Of a DNA stretch of 64,000 bases, positions 20,466-25,332 are shown one piece after another; the stretch's first letter is position 1, and each line of letters opens with the position of its first letter. This DNA is from Acinetobacter chengduensis (GTDB taxonomy: Bacteria > Pseudomonadota > Gammaproteobacteria > Pseudomonadales > Moraxellaceae). Made by a program: the position numbers and the translations under genes. Location of the stretch: assembly GCF_003664645.1 (NCBI RefSeq), contig NZ_RCHC01000010.1, forward strand, positions 1 through 64,000, in the 5' to 3' direction. Under the pieces are notes generated by a model that searched no databases, was not told the DNA's origin, and worked only from the letters and a program-made list of their open reading frames with translations.

Positions 20466-21371
20466 ATGGCTGCATTACCATCTCTAAGACAGCTATCATA
20501 TCTTGTAACGCTGTCAGAAACGCTACATTTTACAGAGGCTGCGCGCCGTTCGTTCGTCACACAGTCTACCCTTTCTGGGGGTATCATGGAACTAGAGCGC
20601 CTACTTGGTGGTGTTCTGGTAGAACGTGACCGCCAAAATGTACGTTTAACGCCACTTGGTGAACAAGTTGTTGGTCGCGCGCGTGTTTTATTGGCTGATG
20701 CACAAGACTTAATGCGTTTAAGCCGTGAAATGAGCGAACCGCTTACTGGTGATCTGCACCTTGGGATTATTCCAACGATTGCACCTTTCATTCTTGCTCA
20801 ATTGCTGGATGAAGTGCACAAGCAATTGCCTAAAATCCAATTGCACTTGCATGAAGCACAAAGTGAAAAAATTGTTGAACGCTTAGAACACGGCAACCTC
20901 GATATGGTTGTTCTTGCTCTACCTTTTGACACACGTAGCTTAAAAGTTGCCGAAATTGCGAAAGAAAATCTATATTTGGTTTACCATAAAGCAGATCAAA
21001 ATGCTGCGCATGCGACCTCTTTAGATAACTTAGACCTTTCTCGCTTAATGCTTTTAGAAGAAGGCCACTGCCTACGTGATCATGCACTCAGTGCATGCCC
21101 AATTGGCGAACGTAAAAATGACCATCGCTTAAAAGCAAGCTCATTGCCAACTTTGGTTGAAATGGTCTCTGCAAATCTTGGTTTCACCTTGTTGCCAGAA
21201 ATTGCGCTTCACACCAATATGATTAAAGCCAACCCAGATTTGGTTATCAAACCAATTGAAGCTGGCCCAAGCCGTACTTTGGCTTTAGTGACCCGTAAAA
21301 GTACACCACTACAAAGCGAGTTTGATGTGCTACTTCAAATTTTGCAAAAGATTACGAATAACTTACACTGA
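20466..21371 (+). CDS. oxyR: Hydrogen-peroxide-sensing LysR regulator OxyR
   Basis: The 301-residue protein has a winged-helix DNA-binding domain at residues 1-60 and a LysR substrate-type domain. The redox cysteines are Cys202 (EEGHCLRDHA) and Cys211 (ACPIGE). They are nine residues apart, like E. coli C199/C208, so disulfide sensing should be intact. It is the last gene of the rubAB-estB-oxyR operon and ends in a strong terminator. Confidence 0.94.
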   Translation: MAALPSLRQLSYLVTLSETLHFTEAARRSFVTQSTLSGGIMELERLLGGVLVERDRQNVRLTPLGEQVVGRARVLLADAQDLMRLSREMSEPLTGDLHLGIIPTIAPFILAQLLDEVHKQLPKIQLHLHEAQSEKIVERLEHGNLDMVVLALPFDTRSLKVAEIAKENLYLVYHKADQNAAHATSLDNLDLSRLMLLEEGHCLRDHALSACPIGERKNDHRLKASSLPTLVEMVSANLGFTLLPEIALHTNMIKANPDLVIKPIEAGPSRTLALVTRKSTPLQSEFDVLLQILQKITNNLH

Positions 21372-21405
21372 GTTTAGCTTTAAACTTTCGTTCAAGTTAT
21401 TAAAG

Positions 21406-21465
21406 ACCTGAGCCGTATAGCCCTTCCCCTGTCAACAGTAAAGGTGCTATACACTCAGGTTTTTT
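21406..21465 (+). terminator. Terminator of the rubAB-estB-oxyR operon
   Basis: A long interrupted stem pairs ACCTGAG/CTCAGGT and TATAGC/GCTATA. The hairpin is followed by six Ts, 34 bp after oxyR. Confidence 0.8.
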
Positions 21466-21746
21466 ATATTCTTAGATTAGCATTTAAAGATACTAAATCA
21501 GTTTTGACTAAGTCCCACACTCGGCCATACAGATAAACATGAATGCAAAAGACATTCAATTTCGCTTATCGTGACATAGATTTTATTGCTTAAAATTTTG
21601 ACCCAATCTTTATGACCAAGCTAATGAGTAGTTGAACGTCATAATCCAATTTTAGATCACGCTGATCCTTCGGTATTCAATATATGATTTATCCAATGAA
21701 GTACTCGGGATAGGAGCTGTATTTCATTTGCATAATAGTAGAAAAG

Positions 21747-21876
21747 AAAAAAGGGCAAACCAAAACGGTTGCCCTAAATAAGGTAAGACGTAAATGAAAT
21801 CTCATTTACTTCCTTTAGAAATCTTCTCACTAGCCAGATCAGTTTGAAGATGTGTTTATCTTAAGTTCAGACGGCG
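21747..21876 (-). ncRNA. Candidate small RNA with orphan terminator
   Basis: On the minus strand a 9-bp hairpin with one bulged base (21752-21761 with 21767-21775) is followed by six Ts, an intrinsic terminator with no gene upstream. Just 5' of it is a perfect 8-bp hairpin (21790-21797 with 21802-21809). A possible promoter is TTGCAA at 21906-21911 and GATAGT at 21883-21888 with 17-bp spacing. An AGGA-ATG pair (ATG at 21805) could start a 38-codon frame, but it runs through the terminator. The alternative is a leader or remnant of a lost gene. Confidence 0.35.
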
Positions 21877-21969
21877 TGATTGACTATCCCTATTTTTGGG
21901 TATTTTTGCAAAGAAATATTGTTTTATTGATAATTTTTTCTTCAAATATCATCAAGATGGCCTATTTTT

Positions 21970-21985
21970 AGTGACAAACATCACA
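21970..21985. promoter_or_regulatory. CRP/Vfr-type palindrome
   Basis: AGTGACAAACATCACA matches TGTGA-N6-TCACA with one mismatch. It lies about 100 bp upstream of the inferred start of the minus-strand candidate sRNA and far (425 bp) from the plus-strand gene at 22410. Confidence 0.35.
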
Positions 21986-22409
21986 CTTTTCATTTTTAGA
22001 AATTATTCCAAACGTTAAATTTTCTCTCCATCATTTAACCCTCGGCATTCACTCCAACTTCAATTGGGTTAAAGCAAACATAGAAATTTAATATACCTCT
22101 ATATATTAAATTAATGTATAACTTTTAGAGTCATAAAAATCTAAATACCGATATTATTTTATAATGAAAATTAACATAAAAATAACCGTAATAGATATTA
22201 TTCACATAAAGAAAAAGATTTTAAAACAATATTAACATAACTTTAAAAATTAAAAATACCAATTATTCAACAAGTACTTAAATATAACTCACCTTAAAAA
22301 TCACCATTTCTAGGTATATGCGAAGCATTATTTTTAGGGCACAGTAGGTCAATATAAAAATATTGAAATACAAATTTTAATTCACGAGTATTTTATTTAG
22401 AGCGATTTA

Positions 22410-23048
22410 ATGGTTTCAATTCTAAGTTTACCGGTCCCTGTATTGATTATTCATCAATACTCGAATATACCGCATACGCACATACATGAAATACTGGTGA
22501 ACTTCGGATATCCTGAAGATGTTATTTTGCACACTTCAGATTTAAGTCAGGCGACTCAGTTCATTGAACAGCATTTACCTAACTTAATTTTATGTGCTGT
22601 CGAAGACTTTGATGATTTAGTTTTTTTACAATCTACACAAAAAATCCATCCTGAAGCGCATCTCATTAGCTTACATTCATCTCTTGAATGCGAAGATATT
22701 TTGATAGCACTCAAGTCAGGTGCACATACATATTTGCTCAATAGTAGCGAAGCTGAACAACTTGCTGAGCATATTCGTATTATTTTACGTGGAGGCGCAA
22801 TTTTACATCCTCAACTGGCAAATTATCTGTTAAATGCCCATTTAACATCGCCTGCTCAAATCGCGCATACACACTCAACAGCTCTTGCTGTTTCCCCCAT
22901 TCCATATTCACCTATTGAAATTCAAATTTTGCAACAGTTTGCGCATGCACAGACGCTTGAACAAACTGCAATGCTCCTCCAACTTTCAACAGTACAAGTG
23001 AGTAATTTGGTTAAACAAATCTTGCGTAAGGTTGCTTTACATGATTAA
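22410..23048 (+). CDS. LuxR/NarL-like regulator with degenerate receiver domain
   Basis: The 212-residue protein has the shape of a NarL-type response regulator. The receiver-like part (about 10-130) has LILCAVEDF where the phospho-acceptor Asp is normally found, placing Ala63 at that site. The N-terminal acidic pair is also missing and the conserved Lys is replaced near YLLNSSEAE. The C-terminal part (about 167-208) keeps a LuxR-type helix-turn-helix pattern ending in VSNLVKQILRKVAL. It is probably phosphorylation-independent. No kinase is adjacent. Target genes are unknown. Confidence 0.7.
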   Translation: MVSILSLPVPVLIIHQYSNIPHTHIHEILVNFGYPEDVILHTSDLSQATQFIEQHLPNLILCAVEDFDDLVFLQSTQKIHPEAHLISLHSSLECEDILIALKSGAHTYLLNSSEAEQLAEHIRIILRGGAILHPQLANYLLNAHLTSPAQIAHTHSTALAVSPIPYSPIEIQILQQFAHAQTLEQTAMLLQLSTVQVSNLVKQILRKVALHD

Positions 23049-23181: not shown

Positions 23182-25263
23182 TTACTTAATCGCGTTTAAA
23201 AGCTCACGCTGTGCATTGTGCAAGGTTTCCGTTTCATTGGCCTGTACACGCACCCACTCACCATTGCCTTGCAATAACCATGCTTGTTGGTTCTCTTTTA
23301 AATAGTTCAACAAACCTTGCTGATAGATTCGTTTTTTCAAGGCTGGATCTTCAATTGGGAAACAAGCTTCCACGCGATTGAATAAGTTACGATCCATCCA
23401 ATCTGCACTCGATGCGTAAATACGCGCATCGCCATTGTTGCTAAAATAGTAAACCCGCGTATGTTCTAAAAAGCGTCCTACAATCGAACGTACACGAATA
23501 TTTTCCGACAAGCCCGGCAAGCCTGGACGTAAGCAACAGATCGAACGAATAATCAAATCAATTTGCACACCAGCTTGAGACGCTTCATATAACTTATTGA
23601 TTAACTGTACTTCAGTCAGCGCATTCACTTTGACAATAATTTGGGCAGGTTTACCTGCTTTTGCATTGGCAATTTCATCATCAATAAAATTAACCAATTG
23701 AGCATGTAAGGTAAATGGCGCATGTAATAGCTTTTTCAGCTTCGCCATTTTGCCCATACCGGTCAGTTCTTGGAAAATACGATGAACATCTTCACAGAGC
23801 TCTTTATCGGTAGTAAGTAAGCCATAATCGGTATAAATACGTGCATTTCCTGCATGGTAGTTACCCGTACCCAAATGTACATAACGCACTAGTTTATTAT
23901 TTTCGCGGCGTACCACTAAAATCATTTTGGCATGCGTTTTATAGCCCACGATGCCATACACCACGACAGCGCCAGCTTCTTGCAATACATTAGCAACAGC
24001 AATATTCGACTCTTCATCAAAACGTGCACGTAGCTCAATCACCGCTGTGACTTCTTTACCATTACGTGCCGCTTCAGCCAGCACTTGTACAATTTCCGAG
24101 TCTGCGCCACTGCGATATAGCGTCTGTTTGATTGCCAGTACTTGCGGATCACGCGCAGCTTCACGGAGCAAATTAATGACAGGTGCAAAAGATTCAAATG
24201 GATGATGGAGCAGAATATCTTGCTTTTGCATCGCACTGAAAATATTTTCAGATTTTTTCAGCACCTTTGGAATAATAGGTGTATGTGACTCATAGCGTAA
24301 ATGCGGACGTTTAAAGTTCGATAGCAAACGTGCTAAGTTGACTGGACCATCCACTTTGTACAGCTGTTCGTTATCTAAATCAAATTCGTCTAACAAATAG
24401 TTATAAATATGTTCTGGGCAGTTTTCAGTCACTTCTAAGCGAACAGCACGACCAAAACGACGCGAAGAAAGCTCGCCTTTTAAAGCTTTTGCTAAATCTT
24501 CGACATCTTCATTTAAAGCTAAGTCCGCATTTCGTGTCACACGGAATTGATAACAACCTGTTGCCGTCATCCCTGGGAATAAATCAGATACATGCTCATG
24601 AATAATTGCAGATAACATCACATGATGTTCTTTACCACCTGTCAATTCATCAGGTAAACGAACTACGCGTGGCAATGAACGTGGCGCTGGCACAACAGCT
24701 AAATCAATTTGACGGCCAAAGGCATCTTTGCCTTCCAAGGTCACAATAAAGTTTAAGCTTTTGTTGACTAAGCGTGGAAACGGATGCGCAGGGTCAAGGC
24801 TAATTGGCGTAAGGACTGGTGCAACTTGCTCTTGGAAATACTTTTTCACCCATGCAGATTGTGCAGGTGTCAGCTCACCACGGCGCAAGAAGCAAATATC
24901 TTCTTCACGTAGTTTAGGCAAAATTTCTTCATTTAAAATACGGTATTGGCGTTCAATAGCAGCATGTGCAGTCACAGAAATTTGATCGAGCACTTGTTTG
25001 GGTGTCAATCCATCCGGCGTATGGCTCTCGTTGCCTAGGTCTAATTGTTCCATCATGCCTGCAACACGGATTTCAAAAAACTCATCCAAATTGCGTGAAA
25101 AGATCAACAAAAAGTTCATTCGTTCCAATAAAGGATGCAATGGATCGACGGCTTGTTCCAAGACGCGCAAATGAAAATCTAGAATTGACAGCTCACGGTT
25201 AATGTAGCGATCGTTATAAGTATATTCAGGTTTTACAAGTCCTGTATCCGCTGCCGTATTCAT
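23182..25263 (-). CDS. ppk1: Polyphosphate kinase 1
   Basis: The 693-residue enzyme builds polyphosphate from ATP, for stress survival and phosphate storage. The N-terminal domain contains [17 protein letters not shown], and the catalytic phospho-histidine lies in the KTHAKMILV segment. The later RSICCLRPG block is also typical. Length is close to the E. coli enzyme (688). I use the ATG at 25263, with AGGG five bases upstream; a TTG five codons earlier is possible. The Pho-linked PiT transporter gene is elsewhere in the window (41.6 kb). Confidence 0.95.
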
Positions 25264-25332
25264 ATCTGCCCTACTCAAATGCTTAATTCACTGGCTGTAA
25301 TTTAGTATGCTTCAAATTTGTGACAATTTCAT

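Follow-up and report, generated by a model that had tools for sequence, protein, structure and literature searches.

The window analyzed here comprises 64,000 nucleotides of Acinetobacter chengduensis (contig NZ_RCHC01000010.1), and the locus of interest lies between two of its plus-strand genes. The upstream neighbour (20466-21371) encodes an OxyR-like LysR regulator, scoring 219.7 bits against the OxyR model versus a cut-off of 329, with its best matches in A. cumulans (99%) and A. tianfuensis (98%) within the best 80 of 147 relatives, which were fetched. The downstream neighbour (22410-23048) encodes a response-regulator-like protein, hereafter RR-L, and is divergent from a putative minus-strand RNA; beyond it, at 23182-25278 on the minus strand, lies what we take to be the polyphosphate kinase gene. 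From stop to start, the gene-free stretch spans 1038 bp (21372-22409); the original prediction had rightly described the region as free of genes but gave its length as 944 bp, apparently counted from the end of the terminator on the oxyR side. At 21774-21747 of this stretch, an intrinsic terminator is found on the minus strand into which no minus-strand gene runs, as had been proposed, the ORF list containing no minus-strand frame longer than 31 aa in 21806-22409. This lone terminator most likely ends a real small RNA gene of some Acinetobacter species. The only family reported by the Rfam scan of the window was the Aar sRNA (RF02375, 12292-12479, plus strand, 94.4 bits), which is not at this locus.

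The putative sRNA gene occupies 21745-21853 of the minus strand and is recognized by homologues in the corresponding position of 10 other species, covariance-model matches, covariation and fold stability. The predicted RNA runs from about 21851 to about 21747 (about 105 nt) and displays three conserved hairpins, the last being the intrinsic terminator. The segment 21745-21853 has an MFE z of -3.7, with none of 200 shuffles equally stable, and the values of 10 relatives range from -2.2 to -6.8. Hairpin 1 (21821-21851, minus strand), at the 5' end, consists of the stem ATCTTC/GAAGAT plus ACT/AGT and a near-invariant 9-nt loop, NATCTGGCT. In this hairpin 98.9% of the cells are paired, versus 34-63% after sliding; its single compensatory pair, A-U to G-C, occurs in genome G096, in which GGCT/AGCC replaces ACT/AGT in the upper stem, and this level of compensation is matched by 51 of 500 shuffles.

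Hairpin 2 (21780-21815, minus strand) has an AAGG/CCTT base and a variable inner stem, which in the window corresponds to the 8-bp helix GTAAATGA/TCATTTAC already noticed upstream of the terminator in the original prediction; in the window's own MFE structure the base appears as the shifted AGGA/TCTT. Counting was performed on hand-anchored arms, with 3 of the 11 sequences excluded from the inner stem, and all counted cells were paired (n = 11 sequences for the base, n = 8 for the inner stem). Four pairs show changes on both sides: the base AAGG/CCTT was swapped for TAGG/CCTA twice, and the inner stem is compensatory at three pairs in the 8 sequences. RNAalifold missed this hairpin on alignment A1 because the alignment is gapped there, and the covariance model R1 consequently lacks it. 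Hairpin 3 (21747-21774, minus strand), the terminator with its U tract, reads GGGCAACC-GTTTT-GG-T-TTGCCC followed by TTTTTT, that is, a bulged stem and six U. It is present in 11 of 11 sequences, with stems that differ yet remain complementary (GGGCAA/TTGCCC, GGGCAG/TTGCCC, AGGGCC/GGCCCT, AGGCTG/CAGCCT, AGGGCT/AGCCCT and AGGCTA/TAGCCT, as well as AGGGCA/TGCCCT in L012). The aligned sequences therefore point to hairpins that keep their pairing through compensatory changes, the case being good for hairpins 2 and 3 and thin for hairpin 1. Covariance in other Acinetobacter had been put forward as the check for a new independent sRNA gene, and the conserved, covarying hairpins bear that proposal out.

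An AGGA-ATG arrangement had also been pointed out, either as the start of a short peptide or as an anti-SD region. The motif does exist, with the ATG at 21805 inside the stem of hairpin 2, and an SD-like AGGA a few nucleotides before an ATG is what a translated peptide would display. This ATG, however, occurs in only 8 of the 11 sequences, and the frames it opens measure 38, 26, 5, 14, 18, 2, 29 and 2 aa; the ATG of L021 and L029 stands 3 nt earlier, with a frame of 2 aa, and L027 has none there. We regard an encoded peptide as extremely improbable. No anti-SD role is evident, the AGGA being part of the hairpin 2 stem with only AGG invariant.

Upstream of the RNA, a -10 element, TAAGAT (21858-21863, minus strand), fits TANNAT in 10 of 10 aligned loci, and from its conservation a start at about 21851 is predicted, some 25 nt away from the position near 21876 suggested earlier. 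With the 10 loci aligned ungapped on a palindrome that lies further upstream, the conserved 5' end RTCTTC begins 6-7 nt after the -10. This 18-bp palindrome, ATACCCAAAAATAGGGAT (21886-21903, minus strand), is an operator-like sequence resembling the NarL 7-2-7 arrangement, located 22 nt before the -10 and centred near -43.5; its half-site, ATMCC, differs in letters from that of NarL, and its CC-N8-GG spacing equals that of NarL 7-2-7. In G096, the operator is likewise present, with TAATAT at 22 nt. Across the ten loci, column identity reaches 87-91% in the operator and 69-88% in the -10 and transcript, versus 46-49%, equal to background, in the 22-nt spacer. The promoter has no -35 and was not listed by the sigma-70 scan, and a simple terminator and promoter scanner listed nothing at the terminator or sRNA promoter positions. 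The latter result, together with the AT-rich character of the intergenic region, is what a chance hairpin or a relic terminator devoid of a transcription unit would predict; given the conservation, covariation, promoter phasing and fold stability described above, we consider such an origin scarcely credible. By sequence comparison, the locus combines its own promoter with a conserved -10, a terminator and a compensatory structure, as an independent sRNA gene would. The CRP-like palindrome of the original prediction was found as well: TGTGATGTTTGTCACT (21970-21985, minus strand) carries 9 of 10 letters of the CRP consensus. By raw letter count, taken without a chance baseline, five of the 11 sequences show 8-10 of 10 letters at -131/-132; in three others 8-9 letters fall at different distances, and the remaining three have no more than 7.

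Covariance model R1, built from 10 loci, gave matches in 11 of the 175 Acinetobacter genomes searched (E <= 0.01), the eleventh match, G096, being independent of the model. All 11 RNA loci sit between the oxyR-like gene and RR-L, including that of G096, whose neighbours are as in the other carriers (oxyR 94% identical, RR-L 38%). Among 81 oxyR loci, namely the window plus 80 fetched from named genomes as the best 80 of 147 relatives, the RNA occurs in 10, corresponding to 10 of 31 loci with RR-L and 0 of 50 without it. None of the 7 loci from A. baumannii, A. nosocomialis, A. seifertii, A. pittii and A. lactucae was matched by R1, two of them (L076 and L090) lying on short contigs. A family-wide scan matched 1 of 149 genomes, the source genome itself, and says little because it presumably sampled none of the ten other carriers. 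At the sRNA locus, no Rfam family reached gathering score, the best hit scoring 24.1 bits versus a gathering threshold of 55. A published report of the sRNA or the palindrome was not found among the literature matches listed, and supplementary sRNA tables may hold an earlier listing; likewise, a term look-up in the main text of two papers on the A. baumannii RNA interactome (PMC11472050, PMC12802169) gave no mention of oxyR or ppk.

RR-L (22410-23048, plus strand) is a NarL-type response-regulator-like protein of 212 aa, comprising a pseudo-receiver and an HTH. Its AlphaFold2 model (pLDDT 84.9) displays a NarL/LuxR-type fold with a receiver-like domain and an HTH, and Foldseek placed VraR, LiaR and NarL among the best matches (E of about 4e-8 to 1e-7), with a whole-chain TM of about 0.5 and a large rmsd. 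Both domains scored below the Pfam cut-offs, and the protein also fell below the NCBIfam cut-off, its score against the NarL equivalog NF007935 being 49.5 bits, with a cut-off of 250. The phospho-accepting Asp, the Ser/Thr and the Lys are missing in every one of the 10 aligned loci that carry the sRNA, one Asp of the acidic pair being kept in 3, and inspection by eye found the phosphorylation residues missing in G096 too; judging by these residues, the RR-L of all 11 loci with the sRNA is a pseudo-receiver. In A. kookii-type RR-L, the Asp is kept, and the Lys and Ser/Thr are lost. A. silvestris and ANC 4648 have an RR-L with all phosphorylation residues and no RNA at the locus. Among related species, receiver decay coincides with the RNA, yet the association is not exclusive: both Asp and Lys are gone in L035 (A. 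towneri), and Lys in L030, and no adjacent RNA was found in either.

The original prediction overlooked that the sRNA and the neighbouring regulator gene have a palindromic operator in common. The RR-L operator, ATCACCATTTCTAGGTAT (22300-22317, plus strand), lies 22 nt before a -10-like element, CACAGT (22340-22345, plus strand), and the palindrome precedes CAAAGT/CACAGT at this distance in the window and many relatives. Of the 31 loci with RR-L, 23 have a palindrome matching 9 or 10 of 10 letters close to the gene start, 6 reach no more than 8 and 2 no more than 7; among mononucleotide shuffles, a score of 9 is attained in 0.9%. On the sRNA side, the palindrome with a -10 at 22 nt was found in 15 of 31 loci with RR-L versus 1 of 50 without it; in the latter, the scan covered 1040 bp beyond oxyR, including genes. 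In many species, a block like AAATACTTAAATATAA, possibly a second promoter or site, lies about 10-30 bp upstream of the RR-L operator (about 22270-22290 in the window).

Of 173 genomes of the genus, 44 contain the strict operator pattern ATACCN6TAGGGAT, with 71 matches in total. The 11 sRNA genomes hold 28 of them, 9 being the sRNA sites themselves, versus 1 reversed-control match; the other 162 genomes hold 43, versus 31 reversed-control matches. The distance to the -10 was analyzed in 48 sites forming 33 clusters, which consisted of 40 of the 71 matches, fetched and picked by eye, plus the core loci and L109 (a further operator locus, described below), with three sites inside genes (L172, L197 and L201) dropped. 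A hexamer NANNNT stands at offset 22 in 16 of 33 clusters, a single clear peak (mean over offsets 4.3, next best 9). Furthermore, 23 whole paralogue genes (L222-L236 and L238-L245, at least three of which were first found through the operator) were inspected, and in 22 of them a palindrome scoring 8-10 of 10 lies 39-61 bp upstream of the start; 15 of these palindromes score 9 or 10, and 20 are followed by NANNNT at 22 nt. The 23rd is the canonical paralogue of the source genome (C23:182089-182772, L231), where the script had picked another position and inspection revealed TTACTTATTTCTAGGGAT followed by TAGGTT 22 nt on. In random 230-nt windows from the same loci, real sites included, the best palindrome scores 8 in 16% and 9-10 in 7%, so that the case for the weaker paralogue sites rests on position and spacing. 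The palindrome was not beyond chance at L237 and L246 (fragments of a broken gene) and at five distant regulators (L247-L251). Another kind of NarL-type regulator, with an N terminus like PLLKPMLVLEDDP, an intact-looking receiver and the operator present, was observed in L163, L170 and L240-L245, the L163 regulator adjoining genes that look fimbrial.

Taking these observations together, we consider it probable that the terminator is the 3' end of a minus-strand sRNA gene that has its own promoter and that NarL-type regulators are predicted to activate, their site being class-II-like; an RR-type palindrome does stand at an activating position, as in an sRNA under the control of such regulators. 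A dimer of NarL-type response regulators would occupy the sRNA palindrome, which is centred near -43.5 and thus placed in a class-II-like manner, and would recruit polymerase to a promoter lacking a -35, thereby activating transcription of the sRNA. Candidate binders are the canonical paralogue, the divergent RR-L, or a heterodimer of both. Since the regulator genes carry a like site, the sRNA and the regulator would rise together.

That RR-L is divergent and falls below the Pfam and NCBIfam cut-offs would also agree with a real sRNA whose palindrome is bound by another transcription factor, the link to NarL-type regulators being indirect; this seems unlikely to us, as an equally spaced site lies in front of most NarL-type paralogue genes inspected, the site is concentrated in genomes with the sRNA and RR-L pair, and its spacing is that of NarL 7-2-7. 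Activation rather than repression is deduced from the spacing, which is the sole basis for this choice. NarL is described as repressing as well as activating at 7-2-7 sites (PMC4549865), so NarL-type regulators might instead repress the sRNA from the palindrome. The exact 22-nt phasing to the -10 and the background conservation at the place of the -35 fit an activator, a repressor site needing no phasing, and repression is accordingly judged quite unlikely.

As for its mode of action, the RNA would base-pair in trans, presumably aided by Hfq, via its near-invariant hairpin 1 loop, NATCUGGCU. The U-rich terminator suggests an Hfq-dependent base-pairing sRNA, and we infer the role of the hairpin 1 loop only weakly. 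An exact search of the 11 genomes with the loop-complement pattern TAGCCAGATNAG gave 19 matches, 11 of them in the sRNA and 8 others that share no gene, and pairing of the loop with the mRNA starts of RR-L or the canonical RR was not better than with mononucleotide shuffles. For the whole RNA against the mRNA start of the canonical RR, the Stouffer sum was -2.9, mostly due to 2 of 11 genomes. In other genera, the NarL-family regulators UvrY and GacA drive RNAs that sequester CsrA/RsmA, and an RNA of this type, titrating a protein instead of base pairing, would suit a NarL-type regulator here; it is nonetheless very unlikely, the RNA having no repeated GGA loops and a single AGGA, located in a stem. 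As identities for the RNA, an Rfam family, CsrA titration and a peptide were all rejected, there being no Rfam match, no GGA loops and no conserved ORF.

Comparable circuits exist in other bacteria. In enterobacteria, the RprA sRNA is activated by RcsB, a NarL-family response regulator, and one of the Foldseek matches of RR-L, 6zj2, is RcsB bound to the rprA promoter. Both systems would have a small RNA driven by a NarL-family regulator, as predicted here; in contrast to RprA and RcsB, the sRNA and the pseudo-receiver regulator described in this work are divergent neighbours with one putative operator in common. RcsB is reported to pair with auxiliary partners (PMC4125116). The BldM-WhiI pair of Streptomyces resembles the present case in consisting of orphan atypical response regulators that act on a palindrome, theirs of 16 bp, with homo- and heterodimer control; its targets are protein genes, and a heterodimer is only hypothesized here (PMC4125116). 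In E. coli, the 7-2-7 sites recognized by NarL include TACCCCTAAAGGGGTA, and napF and yeaR are activated by NarL from sites at -49/-40 and -47/-38 (PMC4549865); the sRNA operator has the same spacing and a similar position. RR-L itself differs from NarL in its low equivalog score and missing phosphorylation residues. Within the genus, Aar is likewise an intergenic sRNA, from which the present one is distinguished by the lack of an Aar match at its locus. Regulators of this kind described for A. baumannii include the NarL-family AmsR (PMC10112286) and, in strain AB5075, the orphan LuxR-family response regulator ABUW_0180 (PMC5382811).

The sRNA family is new, and the kind of circuit is already known. 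In a genus where the control of few sRNAs is known, our results add a family for which regulator, operator and start site are predicted; the operator common to the sRNA and the regulators defines a directly testable regulon, and the locus offers a compact natural system for studying how pseudo-receiver regulators work. More tentatively, and with somewhat less than even confidence, we propose a so far undescribed Acinetobacter network in which NarL-type regulators autoregulate via one palindrome and drive several different non-coding RNAs (the sRNA, a thiE-side RNA and tandem RNAs of the A. kookii group); at the present locus, the regulator would have lost its phosphorylation site while the divergent sRNA became fixed, and control of the sRNA would lie with this pseudo-receiver, which might form a heterodimer with the canonical paralogue or compete with it.

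Other operator-headed units were observed in the genus. A second operator of the source genome (C14:41528-41545; L109:1501-1760) lies 22 nt before TTTAAT and is followed by a putative RNA with an unstructured 5' end, a stem of more than 20 bp and a largely conserved loop, ACGTTT-GGGGAACG; the adjacent gene is, we assume, thiE-like. By eye, a similar layout, its -10-like hexamer 21 or 22 nt from the operator, is present in 6 of the 11 sRNA genomes (G000, G110, G039, G042, G087 and G107), and a DNA search with the L109 stretch gave matches in G000, G110 and G039, and in G100 with the operator alone. In A. kookii and ANC 4169/ANC 3903, two tandem RNA-like units, each headed by an operator, occupy the intergenic region between oxyR and RR-L (L016, L022 and L031), with sequences unlike that of the window's RNA, and L187, from another genome, carries a close copy of the first L031 unit with no RR-L gene identified beside it. 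R1 misses the RNA-like units in the intergenic regions of L022, L025, L031 and L026 and reaches that of L016 only at an E of 2.2, and these units are therefore kept apart as likely relatives. Seven loci with operator sites gave no Rfam match at gathering score. In L180 and L181 (about 2001), the operator and a -10, TATGAT, at 22 nt precede an RNA-like unit with three hairpins by eye, flanked by what appear to be Wzi-like and GNAT-like genes. Finally, in L168 and L191 (2001-2300), the operator lies about 60 bp before a small protein of 62-64 aa with a hydrophobic start, the upstream gene in L191 being presumably nitronate monooxygenase-like.
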